Positions 38,324-53,811 of a stretch of DNA of 64,000 bases are shown here, in pieces. Numbering within the stretch: the first letter of the stretch is position 1; each line of letters begins with the position of its first letter. Source of the DNA: Guyparkeria hydrothermalis (lineage in GTDB: Bacteria > Pseudomonadota > Gammaproteobacteria > Halothiobacillales > Halothiobacillaceae). The notes below the pieces were generated by a model that was not told where the DNA came from, made no database searches, and saw only the letters and a program-made list of their open reading frames with translations. The position numbers were made by a program, and so were the translations under genes. The stretch spans positions 496,001 to 560,000 of the forward strand of contig NZ_JAJSEE010000001.1 of the NCBI RefSeq assembly GCF_023555375.1, in the 5' to 3' direction.

Positions 38324-39064
38324 TTACTTGGCCGCTTCTTCCTCGTCGGCCACCTCGACGAAGTCCGACTCGCTGACGTTGGACGCGCCCTTGGCATCCA
38401 TCACGGCGTCGGCAACAGCAGTGGTGTACAGCTGGATGGCGCGGATGGCGTCATCGTTACCCGGGATGACGTAATCGACACCCTGGGCGCTGTTGTTGGT
38501 ATCGACCACGGCCACGACCGGGATGCCCAGCTTCTTGGCTTCCTTGATCGCGATGTCCTCGTGACCGACGTCGATGACGAACAGCGCGTCCGGGAGGCGC
38601 TCCATGTCCTGGATGCCGCCGATGGAACGCTCGAGCTTGGCGCGCTCGCGGGTGGTTTCCAGCGCTTCCTTCTTGACCAGCTTGGCCAGGCTGCCGTCTT
38701 CTTCCATCTGCTTGAGCGCCTTGAGGCGACGGATGGAGGAACGCACGGTGCGGAAGTTGGTCATCATGCCGCCGAGCCAGCGGTGGTTGACGTACGGCAT
38801 GCCGCAGCGCTTGGCTTCCTGCTCGACCAGGTCACGCGCCGAACGCTTGGTGCCGACGAACAGGATCTTGCCGCCGTTGCCGGCCAGCTTGCCGACGTAG
38901 TTCAGCGCGTCCTCGAACATCGGCAACGTCTTTTCGAGGTTGATGATGTGGATGCGGTTGCGCTGACCGAAGATGTAGGGCGCCATGCCCGGATTCCAGT
39001 ATCGAGTCTGGTGACCGAAGTGGACACCGGCCTCGATCATCTGACGCATCGTGATTTTAGCCAT
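38324..39064 (-). CDS. rpsB: Small ribosomal subunit protein S2
   Basis: A 246-aa 30S subunit protein. Signatures: [22 protein letters not shown] near the start (split here as MRQMIEAG and [11 protein letters not shown]) and the later [20 protein letters not shown] region. It is the promoter-proximal gene of rpsB-tsf and is preceded by a leader of about 140 nt, consistent with autogenous control by S2 as known in E. coli. Confidence 0.97.
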
Positions 39065-39210
39065 TGATAACTACCTGATTAGATTGGGTTAGGCCTCCGC
39101 CACATCTGGCAACGCAACCCCGGCCGAACCGTAGGGCACCCCGCGCTGCCATCTCGATGGGCGTGTGGAATTTCCGGGACCACGCGATCAAGTCACGGCC
39201 CGGCGCGCGG

Positions 39211-47762: not shown

Positions 47763-49760
47763 ATGCCTGCCGACACCACGGCCACCCTGCTCTCCCTGCT
47801 GCTGATCTCGGTCGTCGCCGTGGTGGCGTTGCGCCGCCTGAACCTCCCGGCGATCCTCGGCTACCTCGCCGTGGGCGTGGTGGCCGGCCCGCATGCGCTC
47901 GGGCTGGTCAAGGACATCCACGACATCCATCTCATCGCCGAGTTCGGCGTGGTGTTCCTGCTGTTCATGCTGGGGCTGGAGTTCTCGCTCACGCGCCTGA
48001 TCGCGATGCGCCGGGCGGTGGTCGGCATGGGGGGCGCGCAGGTACTCCTCACCGCCGTGATCACCGGCGGCGCGGCCCTGATGATGGGCTTCTCGCCGGC
48101 CGCCGCCTTCACCCTGGCCGGGGTGATGACCGTCTCGTCGACCGCCATCGTCATCCGCCAGCTCGGCGAGCAGCTCGAGGTCAATTCCCGCCACGGCAAC
48201 AACGCCGTCGGCATCCTGCTGTTCCAGGACCTGGCGGTCATCCCCTTCCTGATCGTCATCCCGGTGCTCGGCGTGTCGGGCGCGGCGGGCGATGCGGGCA
48301 ACCTCACCCTGGAGATCACCCTGACGCTTGGCGCCGGCGTGCTCGCCGCGATCGGCCTGTTCTTCGGCGGGCGCTGGGTGCTGCGCCCGCTGTTCCGCGA
48401 GATCGCCAAGTCCCGCTCGGCCGAGCTGTTTACGCTGGCCGTCCTGCTGACCGTGCTGGGTGCCGGCTGGCTGACCAACGCCGCCGGCCTGTCCTGGGAG
48501 CTGGGCGCGTTCCTCGCCGGCATCGCGCTGTCCGAGACCCAGTACAAGCACCAGATCGAGGCCGACATCCGGCCCTTCCGCGACGTGCTGCTGGGGCTGT
48601 TCTTCATCACGATCGGCATGATGCTCGACGTCGGCGGCCTGCCGGAGATCGGTCACTGGGTGCTGATGTTCCTCGCCCTGCTGATCGCCGCCAAGACGGC
48701 CATCATCTTCCTGATCGGCCGCGCGATGGGCGAGGCGCCGGGCGTGGCCCTGCGCTCGGGCCTGGTCCTGGCCCAGGGGGGCGAATTCGGCTTTGCCATG
48801 CTCTCGATCGCCAGCCCCGACCTGATGACCGACATGCAGCACCAGATCGTGCTGGGCACCGTGATCTTCTCGATGGTGCTCACCCCGATCCTGGTCAAGT
48901 ACAACGGCACGATCGCCAAGCGTCTGGTGCCGGGCTACGCCAAGAGCCGACGCCAGCACAACGTGGAGGTGCGTGCCGATGCCAGCGACGTCTCGCGGCA
49001 CGTGCTGATCTGCGGCTTCGGTCGCGTCGGGCAGAACGTCGCCCGCCTGCTGAAGAGCGAAGGGATCGACTACACGGCGATCGAGGTCGACCCCGACATT
49101 GTCCAGCAAGCCAACGAGGCCGGCCTGCGCGTCTACTTCGGCAACTCCACGCACCTCGACATCCTGCAGTCGGCCGGGCTGGATCGGGCGCGCGCCGTGG
49201 TGATCAGCCACCTCGACGACGCCTCGACCATCAAGACCATCGAGGTGATCCGCGGCCACAACCGCGACATCCCGGTGATCGTGCGCACCCGCACCGACGA
49301 GCACCTCGATCGCATCCACGAGGCGGGCGCCACCGAGGTGGTCGCCTCGGTCTACGAGATGAGCCTCGCGCTGGGCGGGCACGTGTTGCGCACGCTCGAG
49401 GTGCCGCTGGCCAAGATCCTGCGCCAGATCCAGGAAATCCGCCAGGCCGACTACGCCCCGCTGCGTCACACCTTCCACGGCGACCGCGCCCGTGACGAGG
49501 ACGACTTCGCCCTGCTCGCTCCCCGCACCCTCAAGAACGTGGCACTGGTGCCGGGGGCCGCGGGCATCGGCAAGCAGCTGGGCGTCATCCTGACCGATCA
49601 CGACGGCGTGGTGGTCGATTCGATCAACCGCCATGGCATCCGCGGCGAGAGCCCGAGCGACGACGTCGAACTCCAGGAAGGCGACGTGCTGACGCTCTAC
49701 GGCTCGCCCGAGGCACTCGACACCGCCGAGCAATTATTGCTGACCGGCCGACCGGACTGA
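47763..49760 (+). CDS. Kef-type monovalent cation/proton antiporter (CPA2) with TrkA domains
   Basis: A 665-aa CPA2 transporter. Twelve or so N-terminal membrane spans (to about residue 385) include HALGLVKDI, LFMLGLEFSLTRL and LLFQDLAVIP. A RCK/TrkA-N domain follows at about 415-530 (VLICGFGRVGQNVARLL), then a TrkA-C domain (about 570-660). It probably moves K+ or Na+ against H+, gated by a nucleotide on the RCK domain. Glutathione-gated KefB/C have an ancillary KefG/F gene; none is next to this one. AAGGA lies 12 bases before the ATG. It stands alone, 134 bp after aat. Confidence 0.93.
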   Translation: MPADTTATLLSLLLISVVAVVALRRLNLPAILGYLAVGVVAGPHALGLVKDIHDIHLIAEFGVVFLLFMLGLEFSLTRLIAMRRAVVGMGGAQVLLTAVITGGAALMMGFSPAAAFTLAGVMTVSSTAIVIRQLGEQLEVNSRHGNNAVGILLFQDLAVIPFLIVIPVLGVSGAAGDAGNLTLEITLTLGAGVLAAIGLFFGGRWVLRPLFREIAKSRSAELFTLAVLLTVLGAGWLTNAAGLSWELGAFLAGIALSETQYKHQIEADIRPFRDVLLGLFFITIGMMLDVGGLPEIGHWVLMFLALLIAAKTAIIFLIGRAMGEAPGVALRSGLVLAQGGEFGFAMLSIASPDLMTDMQHQIVLGTVIFSMVLTPILVKYNGTIAKRLVPGYAKSRRQHNVEVRADASDVSRHVLICGFGRVGQNVARLLKSEGIDYTAIEVDPDIVQQANEAGLRVYFGNSTHLDILQSAGLDRARAVVISHLDDASTIKTIEVIRGHNRDIPVIVRTRTDEHLDRIHEAGATEVVASVYEMSLALGGHVLRTLEVPLAKILRQIQEIRQADYAPLRHTFHGDRARDEDDFALLAPRTLKNVALVPGAAGIGKQLGVILTDHDGVVVDSINRHGIRGESPSDDVELQEGDVLTLYGSPEALDTAEQLLLTGRPD

Positions 49761-49792: not shown

Positions 49793-49821
49793 TTGGAAAT
49801 CCGGCGGCATTTCACTAGGAT
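49793..49821 (+). promoter_or_regulatory. Promoter of the 77-aa gene
   Basis: TTGGAA (49793-49798) and TAGGAT (49816-49821) with an exact 17-bp spacer, 51 bp before the ATG. Confidence 0.6.
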
Positions 49822-49872
49822 AGGCCTATCAACGACAACGACCTGATCCCGAGGTCAGGGGAGGCAAGCGAC

Positions 49873-50106
49873 ATGATCGCGAATGTGGACAGCGGCTACA
49901 GCAACATCTCGGCCGCCGACGGCGTGCTCTCCACGCCGACCAACCAGCAGACGGTCAACCCGAGCGCCCAGACGCGCAACACGCCGGTGGAGAACCCGGT
50001 CGAGAACCGCGTCAACGGCGGCGAGCCGACCACGGCCACCCAGAACCGCGCCGGCGACGAGCAACAGGACGGCGGGCCGGGCAGCATGATCGACGTGCGC
50101 GCCTGA
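49873..50106 (+). CDS. Small disordered orphan protein (77 aa), unknown function
   Basis: Not recognised. The gene looks real: a promoter with ideal spacing, a GGGGAGG ribosome binding site nine bases before the ATG, and a strong terminator 43 bp after the stop make a complete single-gene unit. The 77 residues contain no Lys, Cys, Trp, Phe or His and a single Tyr. They are rich in Asn, Thr, Gln, Gly, Pro and Glu, with a short repeat VENPVENRVN, so the protein is acidic and probably disordered. No signal peptide or membrane segment is visible. Some flagellum- or surface-linked small proteins share this composition, but no assignment is made. Confidence 0.75.
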   Translation: MIANVDSGYSNISAADGVLSTPTNQQTVNPSAQTRNTPVENPVENRVNGGEPTTATQNRAGDEQQDGGPGSMIDVRA

Positions 50107-50148
50107 CGCGGATACATCGGCTCACGGCAGCGCCGGCGCTGCCACGGG

Positions 50149-50174
50149 ATGCGGGCTCCGGCCCGCATTTTTTT
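50149..50174 (+). terminator. Rho-independent terminator after the 77-aa gene
   Basis: ATGCGGGC-TCCG-GCCCGCAT (50149-50168) is a perfect 8-bp stem with a 4-nt loop, with a run of seven T's (50168-50174). The remaining 170 bp before mfd hold a weak -10 (GACAAT, about 76 bp before the ATG) and no other gene. Confidence 0.93.
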
Positions 50175-50346: not shown

Positions 50347-53300
50347 ATGAGCGACGCCAAGCAGTCCATCGCCCAACCCGCCGATCCCGGCAACCCGATC
50401 TACCTGCGCGTGCACACCGAGCTCGGCCGGGCACTGGCCACGCGCCTGGCGACCATGGCCGCGGATCGACCGGTGCTGGCCGTCCTGCCCGACAGCCGGG
50501 TGGTCAACGACACCCGCGCGGCGCTCGCCTTCCTCGGCATCGAGGCAAGCGTCTTCCCCGACTGGGAAGTACTGCCCTACGACCGCTTCTCGCCGCATCA
50601 GGACCTGATCTCCGACCGGCTCTCCCGCCTTTGGCGCCTGCCCGGCGAATCGAACGGGCTGACCCTGATCGCCGCGCCCACCCTGCTCCAGCGACTGCCG
50701 CCGCCGGCGTTCGTCACCGGCCAGGGCATGGTCCTCGAGGTCGGGCAACGGCTGGATCGCGAGGCCTACCGCCATCAACTCGAGGAGGCCGGCTACAGCC
50801 TCGTCTCCACCGTCGAGCAGCACGGCGAGTACGCGCTACGCGGCGGACTGATCGACGTGTTCCCGATGGGCGCCAGCGAGCCGGTGCGCATCGACCTGTT
50901 CGACGACGAGATCGAGACCCTGCGTCACTTCGACCCCGAATCGCAGCGTTCCACCGAGACGGTCGAGGCGATCACCCTGCTACCGGCGCGCGAGTACCCG
51001 CTGACCGACAAGGGCATCGCCACCTTCCGACAGAACTGGCGCAACACCTTCGCCGGCGACCCGAGCCGCGCGCCGATCTACAAGCAGGTCTCCGAGGGAC
51101 TGGTCCCGGCGGGGATCGAGAGCTACCTGCCGCTGTTCTTCGACTCGACCGCGACCCTGTTCGACTTCCTGCCCGACTCGGCGCGCCTGCTGCTGTTCGA
51201 CGGGGTCGAGCAGTCGATCGACGCCTTCGTCGAGGAGACCAGCCAGCGCTTTGCCCAGCGTGCCGGCGACATCGATCACCCGATTCTCGCCCCCGAGGCG
51301 CTCTACCAGACACCCGGGGAATTCGGTGAACGGTTGAAGCGCCTGCCGCGCTGGCAACTGGTGGCCGGCGGCGACGAGCGCTTCCCGCAGGCCGCCGACA
51401 TCGGCGACCGCCCGCTGCCGGATCTTGCCGGCGGCAGCGCGGCCCAGGCGGCGGTGATCGAGCGCCTGGCCGCGTTCGCGCGCGAGTTCGACGGCCACAC
51501 CCTGCTGGTCGCCGAGAGCAGCGGTCGGCGCCAGGCCCTGGTCGAGCAGACCACCGCCGCCGGCCTCAAGCCGCAGGCCATTACCGGCTGGGAGCAGGCC
51601 GACCGGGCGCCGGTGACCGTCGCGGTGGCCGAACTCGAGCACGGCGCGATCCTGCCGACCACCGGTCGCCCGGTGGCGGTGATCAGCGAGACCAACCTGT
51701 TCGCCGAGCGGGTCGCCCAGCGGCGCGCGAAGTCCCGTCGTGGCCGAGACGCCGATGCCATCATCCAGAACCTCGACGACCTCGCCATCGGGGCACCCGT
51801 CGTCCACGAGGATCACGGGGTCGGCCGGTTCCAGGGGCTGGTCACGCTGGAGATGAACGACCAGCCGCAGGAATACCTGCTGCTGACCTACGCCGACGAC
51901 GACAAGCTCTACGTGCCGGTCTCCGGCCTCGAGCGCATCTCGCGCTACACCGGTGGTTCCGAGGAGACTGCGCCGCTGCACCGCCTGGGTTCCGGGCAGT
52001 GGGAGAAGGCGAAAAAACGCGCGGCCAGGCAGGTCCACGACGTCGCCGCCGAGTTGCTGGACATCCACGCCCGTCGCGCGGCGCGCAAGGGCACCTCGCT
52101 GACCACCGACGAGGCCGACTATCGCCAGTTCGCCGAGGAATTCGCCTTCGAACCCACCGACGATCAACGCCTGGCGATCGAGCAGGTACTCACCGACATG
52201 GCGGCCGGCCAGCCGATGGACCGGGTCGTCTGCGGCGACGTCGGCTTCGGCAAGACCGAGGTGGCCATGCGCGCGGCCTTCGTCGCCGTGCAGAACGGCG
52301 CGCAGGTCGCCGTGCTGGTGCCGACCACCCTGCTCGCCGAGCAGCACATGCGAAACTTCCGTGACCGCTTCGCCAACTGGCCGGTGACCATCGAGAGCCT
52401 CTCGCGCCTGTCGGGCGGGAAGAAGACCGGCGAGCTGCGCGAGCGCATCAAGGCCGGCCAGGTCGACATCGTCATCGGCACGCACAAGCTGCTGCGCGAC
52501 TCGCCCGAGTTCGCCAACCTCGGGCTGGTGATCATCGACGAGGAGCAGCGCTTCGGCGTGCGCGACAAGGAACGCCTCAAGGCCCTGCGCGCCGAGGTGG
52601 ATCTCCTGACCCTGACCGCCACGCCCATCCCGCGCACGCTCAACATGGCGCTCTCGGGCATCCGGGACCTGTCGATCATCGCCACCCCGCCGCGCGAGCG
52701 CCTGGCGGTCAAGACCGTGATCCTGCGCTGGGACGAGGTGCAGATCCGCGAGGCGATCCAGCGGGAACTCAAGCGCGGCGGCCAGGTGTACTTCCTGCAC
52801 AACGAGGTCAAGAGCATCGACCGCATGGCGCGCCTGGTCGAGGAGATCGTGCCGGAGGCGCGCATCGGCGTGGCCCACGGGCAGATGGGCGAACGCGGGC
52901 TCGAGCAGGTGATGTCGGACTTCTACCACCAGCGTTTCAACGTGCTGGTCTCGACCACGATCATCGAGTCGGGGATCGACATCCCCACCGCCAACACTAT
53001 CCTGATCCACCGCGCCGACAAGTTCGGCCTGGCGCAGCTCCACCAGCTGCGCGGCCGGGTGGGTCGCTCGCACCACCGCGCCTACGCCTACCTAATCACC
53101 CCGGAGCCGGGTCAGCTCACCCCGGATGCGCAAAAACGCCTCGAGGCGATCGCCGCGCTCGAGGACCTGGGCGTGGGCTTCACGCTCTCCACCCACGATC
53201 TCGAGATCCGTGGCGCCGGCGAGCTCTTGGGCTCGGGTCAGTCCGGGCAGATGCACGAGGTCGGCTACCGCTACTACATGCAACTGCTCGACCGGGCGGT

Positions 53301-53811
53301 GGCCGCCATCCGCGAGGGACGCGAGCCGGCGCTCGATGCCCCCCTGCCCCCCTCGAGCACCGAGGTCGACCTGGGCGAGCCAGCCCTGATCCCCGAGGAC
53401 TACGTCAGTGACGTGCACACCCGCCTGACCCTCTACAAGCGCCTGTCCACCGCCGAGAGCGACGAGGCGCTCGACGAGCTCAAGGTGGAACTGATCGACC
53501 GCTTCGGCCTGCTGCCCGAGCCGGTCGTCGCCCTGGTCGAGACCCACCGACTGCGCATCCGGGCCCGCCGGATCGGCATCACCAAGATCGAGCTGACCGC
53601 CCGTGGCGGCCGGCTGATCTTCGGCGAGAATGCCCGCATCGACCCGGCCAAGCTGGTCGCCGCCGTGCAGGCCGCCCCGGACACCTATCGCCTGTCGGCC
53701 GACACGCTGCGCTTTACCCGCGACATGGCGACGCTCGACGACCGCCTGAAGACCATCGAGGTCATCCTGGCCGACATCGCCCTGCCCGAGCGCGAGGAAA
53801 CCACGGCATGA
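50347..53811 (+). CDS. mfd: Transcription-repair coupling factor
   Basis: A 1154-aa DNA translocase that removes stalled RNA polymerase and recruits UvrA. Order: UvrB-like N-terminal domain (about 1-340), the RNA-polymerase-interacting (CarD-like) domain near 478-545 (VHEDHGVGRFQGL), superfamily 2 motor with Walker A GDVGFGKTE (about 629) and DEEQ (about 730), HQLRGRVGRS motif VI, then the TRCF C-terminal regulatory domain. E. coli Mfd is 1148 aa. The last codons overlap the RDD gene start by 4 bp. Confidence 0.97.
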   Translation: MSDAKQSIAQPADPGNPIYLRVHTELGRALATRLATMAADRPVLAVLPDSRVVNDTRAALAFLGIEASVFPDWEVLPYDRFSPHQDLISDRLSRLWRLPGESNGLTLIAAPTLLQRLPPPAFVTGQGMVLEVGQRLDREAYRHQLEEAGYSLVSTVEQHGEYALRGGLIDVFPMGASEPVRIDLFDDEIETLRHFDPESQRSTETVEAITLLPAREYPLTDKGIATFRQNWRNTFAGDPSRAPIYKQVSEGLVPAGIESYLPLFFDSTATLFDFLPDSARLLLFDGVEQSIDAFVEETSQRFAQRAGDIDHPILAPEALYQTPGEFGERLKRLPRWQLVAGGDERFPQAADIGDRPLPDLAGGSAAQAAVIERLAAFAREFDGHTLLVAESSGRRQALVEQTTAAGLKPQAITGWEQADRAPVTVAVAELEHGAILPTTGRPVAVISETNLFAERVAQRRAKSRRGRDADAIIQNLDDLAIGAPVVHEDHGVGRFQGLVTLEMNDQPQEYLLLTYADDDKLYVPVSGLERISRYTGGSEETAPLHRLGSGQWEKAKKRAARQVHDVAAELLDIHARRAARKGTSLTTDEADYRQFAEEFAFEPTDDQRLAIEQVLTDMAAGQPMDRVVCGDVGFGKTEVAMRAAFVAVQNGAQVAVLVPTTLLAEQHMRNFRDRFANWPVTIESLSRLSGGKKTGELRERIKAGQVDIVIGTHKLLRDSPEFANLGLVIIDEEQRFGVRDKERLKALRAEVDLLTLTATPIPRTLNMALSGIRDLSIIATPPRERLAVKTVILRWDEVQIREAIQRELKRGGQVYFLHNEVKSIDRMARLVEEIVPEARIGVAHGQMGERGLEQVMSDFYHQRFNVLVSTTIIESGIDIPTANTILIHRADKFGLAQLHQLRGRVGRSHHRAYAYLITPEPGQLTPDAQKRLEAIAALEDLGVGFTLSTHDLEIRGAGELLGSGQSGQMHEVGYRYYMQLLDRAVAAIREGREPALDAPLPPSSTEVDLGEPALIPEDYVSDVHTRLTLYKRLSTAESDEALDELKVELIDRFGLLPEPVVALVETHRLRIRARRIGITKIELTARGGRLIFGENARIDPAKLVAAVQAAPDTYRLSADTLRFTRDMATLDDRLKTIEVILADIALPEREETTA

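Follow-up and report, generated by a model that had tools for sequence, protein, structure and literature searches.

Flagellar axial proteins are not known to contain cysteine. Among described systems, the closest to the small protein analysed in this study are flagellar-type proteins, namely the Pfam families YjfB_motility (PF14070) and FlaG (PF03646) and miniature rod/hook-like proteins, in each of which members were found that recall it in their last residues. Finding a function for a small protein confined to one lineage is difficult; in the present case a first testable functional hint comes from the likeness of the C-terminus to small motility proteins, together with strong coding conservation and a fixed locus. 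A search of paper listings and of passages of PMC9032823 found nothing on the gene; the passages mention twitching motility as well as type IV pili, and the string 'flagell' is absent from them.

In this study, we analysed a 77-aa small-protein gene of Guyparkeria hydrothermalis (genome G000; 2.43 Mb, 9 contigs), located in a 64-kb stretch of DNA which is referred to below as the window. The features of the locus are as follows:

47763..49760 (+): upstream neighbour, KefB-like transporter gene; tblastn hit in 19/19 homologous loci
49793..49821 (+): sigma-70-like promoter TTGGAA / 17 bp / TAGGAT, from sequence; kept in 9/9 aligned Guyparkeria loci
49858..49864 (+): ribosome-binding site GGGGAGG, from sequence; 8 nt before the ATG
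49873..50106 (+): 77-aa small-protein gene, ATG start, stop included; from homologues, pN/pS and similarity beginning at the ATG
50080..50103 (+): C-terminal motif G-S-M-I-D-V-R-A, from homologue alignments
50126..50143 (+): first hairpin 3′ of the stop, a perfect 18-bp palindrome, from fold and position
50149..50174 (+): intrinsic terminator, 8-bp GC-rich stem plus T-run, from fold
50347..53811 (+): downstream neighbour, mfd; tblastn hit in 19/19 homologous loci

Both neighbours carry the names that we presume for them, judged from their sequences and not from a family search.

An earlier sequence-only reading of this DNA had proposed a promoter with exact 17-bp spacing, and this spacing was found between the −35-like TTGGAA (49793-49798) and the −10-like TAGGAT (49816-49821). 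The elements match 8 of 12 consensus positions, a score that seven such 17-bp-spacer sites reach in the 64-kb window, both strands counted, and a scan at a threshold of 9/12 found no site near the gene; the match is weak and by itself within chance. The promoter is nevertheless credible because it is conserved in all nine Guyparkeria loci aligned for promoter and ribosome-binding site (the genus has ten homologous loci, of which L011 was left out), with TGG-A-T ... TTCACTA-G-T as the invariant block and a spacer which, judged by eye, measures 17 bp in five loci and 18 bp in four. A sigma-54 promoter was also considered and dropped by eye, since its −12 GC is not conserved among the aligned Guyparkeria loci.

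The ribosome-binding site that the same reading had pointed out is largely conserved in the nine aligned loci. Its terminator is a strong one and was likewise borne out by folding: the 77-nt stretch folds better than each of 200 shuffles (z −2.99), and the second hairpin (50149-50168) continues into a T-run ending at 50174. By eye, a hairpin with T-run follows the gene in nine of the ten Guyparkeria loci and was not evident in the nine loci of the second carrier genus; a simple terminator scan did not list the element at 50149-50174. Judged from these conserved signals, with a promoter and a terminator of its own, the gene is probably transcribed independently, and sequence and conservation thus support the self-contained single-gene unit that had been suggested. 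An Rfam search gave no match at the gene locus. Two matches to TwoAYGGAY RNA (RF01731) lie near the start of the window, on opposite strands and about 140 bp apart (326-394, − strand; 532-650, + strand).

Homologues were sought by searching 57 genomes with the protein and 27 family genomes with a profile. Homologues are present in 19/27 family genomes and in two genera, comprising 10/11 genomes of Guyparkeria and 9/10 of a second genus, inferred to be Halothiobacillus, with 0/1 and 0/5 in two further genera. Within Guyparkeria, pN/pS ranges from 0.03 to 0.34 (36 pairs, 9 genes), and within the second genus from 0.08 to 0.56 (36 pairs), where many synonymous distances are saturated; 18 of the 19 homologues were included and L011 was left out. 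The second-genus homologues align at 37-43% identity, and an alignment of 17 homologues, without L011 and L013, contains 14 invariant columns spread over N-terminal, central and C-terminal stretches. Sequence similarity begins at the ATG at 49873, and the frame upstream of it is unrelated among homologues. In the L011 homologue (genome G010), the N-terminal MI-x-N...SGYS is replaced and the ATG is absent there; a GTG just before it is a possible start. The sequence-only reading had named homologues with coding conservation as the point on which its gene would stand or fall, and such homologues were found: the gene is real and protein-coding, and it is not a one-strain orphan. The word orphan holds insofar as the gene is lineage-restricted to two sister genera of sulfur-oxidising bacteria, and fails insofar as most genomes of the family carry it.

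Searches of Pfam, NCBIfam, PDB sequences, phages and plasmids gave no credible homologue, so that the earlier statement of no known family stands for Pfam and NCBIfam. A profile search of 369 sampled class genomes gave no convincing relative beyond the genus; it returned four genus genomes and five partial weak matches (E 0.0014-0.0055). The best of these five (L031) was translated and rejected, as its frame is that of no convincing gene, and the other four were set aside on the partial match and on open-frame lengths. A paralogue in the own genome was rejected as well, the single weak match (E 0.275) lying inside an 879-codon frame. Within the searches made, this small-protein gene is undescribed.

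The product contains no Cys, Phe, His, Lys or Trp, in agreement with what had been read from the sequence. Cys and Trp are absent from 19/19 homologues, and second-genus homologues contain some of Lys, Phe or His. Three linear stretches are conserved, an N-terminal M-I-x-N...Y-x-N...A-D-G, a central SAQ-x-RN-x-PVE...NRV...E and a C-terminal G-x-x-[IL]-D-V-R-[AV]; the family-wide form of the C-terminal motif is G-x-x-[ILV]-D-[VL]-[RH]-[AV]. The product is taken to be a small soluble protein and is predicted to be disordered. An AlphaFold2 model built with only 5 close sequences has no secondary structure (mean pLDDT 56.6, pTM 0.11), and by the charge-hydropathy rule the 10 Guyparkeria proteins fall on the disordered side and the nine second-genus proteins slightly on the folded side, so that the disorder claimed earlier is backed by model and composition in Guyparkeria, with composition in the second genus pointing slightly the other way. 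High expression, which had also been suggested, found no support: the promoter match is weak, and the codon adaptation of the gene to rpsB/tsf is 0.734; 166 windows of 77 codons taken from neighbouring genes average 0.665 (sd 0.066), and 31 of them reach the value of the gene. Codon use gives no support for high expression. A t44 RNA match (39088-39185, − strand) is located directly upstream of rpsB (38327-39064) and tsf, the two genes being named here from their presumed identity, as judged from sequence.

As the best specific reading, to which we assign a probability of about 0.35, we propose a small disordered protein associated with the flagellum; it is named best because it is the only specific reading with any positive evidence. 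Such a protein would act through the three conserved linear stretches, its C-terminus would mimic miniature rod/hook-like and YjfB-type proteins, and it would bind to the flagellar rod/export apparatus or be exported through it. This link to the flagellum is inferred from the resemblance at the C-terminus, from the absence of Cys and Trp and from the flagellar genes that carriers possess.

For the C-terminal resemblance, DNA patterns of the motif were used. In the own genome, the single match is the gene itself. A loose pattern gave 64 matches in 114 class genomes and was not enriched, its reversal giving about 71 (hand count). Of its matches, 29 non-own loci were fetched, three of which (L063, L068, L073) have very short frames and stand outside the 26 that were read; by eye, 10 of these 26 encode small flagellar-type proteins, and in Pfam FlaG, YjfB_motility and one Flg_bbr_C scored above the curated cut-off, with weaker matches in others. 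A strict pattern, the DNA for G-x-x-hydrophobic-D-[VIM]-x-A-stop, gave 34 matches in 339 class genomes versus 16 for the reversed pattern (hand count). Reading by eye the 27 loci that were fetched outside Guyparkeria revealed 14 small flagellar-type proteins (12 rod-like, 2 YjfB-like) and 13 loci that look like chance frames. With a control pattern in which the initial GG is shifted by one base against the reading frame, and which thereby controls for the D-hydrophobic-x-x-A end and not the G-x-x-D, 0/30 loci were rod-like or YjfB-like (versus 14/27, Fisher 2.6e-6, with classes assigned by eye). Pfam backs 10 of the 14, with weak Flg_bbr_C matches in 8/12 rod-like and strong YjfB_motility matches in 2/2 YjfB-like proteins, and gave no flagellar support in six tested of the 13 other loci or in 10 control frames tested. 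Such C-terminal ends thus mark, in this class, small flagellar-type proteins, and the family of the gene has such an end.

The 12 rod/hook-like proteins (L053, L065, L108, L112, L114, L115, L123, L124, L127, L128, L129 and L131) are small, single and end in G-x-[LI]-[LI]-D-[VI]-[KR]-A; they come from widely different genera and lie away from recognisable flagellar genes. Their neighbours are housekeeping genes: 36 neighbouring ORFs were scanned, two of them SprA-related, and among 25 listed of 27 families no flagellar family was found. These surroundings fit the isolated place of the gene and give no support for a flagellar function.

At least as likely, though short of an even chance, is that the product is a disordered adaptor of the cytoplasm with no connection to flagella. 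It could serve stress or salt physiology, or another assembly (the carboxysome, for example) as a linker or as a peptide that binds clients; the C-terminal likeness would then be convergence. Disorder combined with conserved short stretches would suit such a protein, as would the absence of a flagellar-type promoter (upstream of the gene there is no sigma-28-like site, the best scoring 8/12 with a wrong core) and of any match between flagellar HMMs and the 17 homologues. The presence pattern can be read both ways. FlhA, the flagellar export gate, was matched in 18/19 carriers versus 3/8 non-carriers (G011, G014, G026; Fisher 0.004) and the carboxysome protein CsoS2 in 16/19 versus 1/8 (Fisher 0.0009), both values being confounded by ancestry, and CsoS2 tracks the gene at least as well as FlhA. 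The only carrier without an FlhA match is a genome of 79% completeness, and FliD, found in 16/19 carriers versus 5/8 non-carriers, does not track the gene. Because two sister genera represent few independent events, presence patterns do not decide the function. In genome G015 (contig C1, 775450-777425), the FlhA match (PF00771) comes as two neighbouring pieces that lie in different frames, owing to a frameshift or a sequencing error. Against a carboxysomal adaptor, Pfam gave no sequence link between the product and carboxysome proteins and the CsoS2 match is missing in three of the 19 carriers, and, beyond the genus, matches to the C-terminal pattern point to small flagellar-type proteins. A flagellum-associated protein and an adaptor differ in one prediction, namely export through, or binding to, the flagellum.

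A bolder extension of the flagellar association, which we regard as unlikely, is that the final octapeptide, G-x-[LI]-[LI]-D-[VI]-[KR]-A, would serve small flagellar proteins as a common address tag, placed on unrelated peptides (rod-like, YjfB, FlaG and this family), so that the product would be a disordered linker plus tag and little else. If this is true, many small proteins now without annotation would become easier to name.

More doubtful still is a partner or regulator of the neighbours: the product might be a small KefB-like transporter subunit, or the gene a spacer that insulates or tunes mfd. Its place between the two genes is fixed in 19/19 homologous loci, and in G026, a gene-less genome of the carrier genera, kefB-like and mfd are adjacent, which would suit such a role; the other gene-less genome, G003, has mfd at a contig end and is uninformative on the locus. 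However, G026 retains both neighbours without the gene, the gene has its own conserved promoter and terminator, and between two sister genera little can be concluded from a same-strand order alone. A transcript acting as RNA only, or a chance frame, might be suspected from the short ORF, its odd composition and the stable hairpins 3′ of the stop, but is very improbable with a pN/pS far below 1 in the genus and second-genus homologues that align with it.

Returning to a flagellum-associated protein, the locus can be compared with the known flagellar-type systems as follows. Its neighbours are kefB-like and mfd, and a flagellar gene neighbourhood is absent; in the own genome, the 75 kb surrounding fliD and flhA contain no further C-terminal motif and no further TTCACTA promoter block. 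One FlaG member found ends in GLLLDTEA, recalling the end of the product, but has 128 aa with a full FlaG domain, whereas the product differs and has no FlaG HMM match. YjfB_motility proteins are small like the product, and two members end in GNNIDVRA and GQNIDVKA; the PF14070 HMM matched 0/17 homologues. For the miniature rod/hook-like proteins, which end in G-[TSA]-[LI]-[LI]-D-[VI]-[KR]-A and match Flg_bbr_C weakly, the PF06429 HMM matched 0/17 homologues at E up to 10, and a profile comparison aligned the last 12 columns only (Prob 51), a circular result since the set had been chosen by that end. In these proteins the motif follows a helical-looking C-terminal segment, and the N-terminus has a G-I-x-x-G pattern; both features are missing from the product. 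Like the product, they are small and, in the loci read, are encoded by single genes away from flagellar clusters, and their last eight residues look near-identical to its own.
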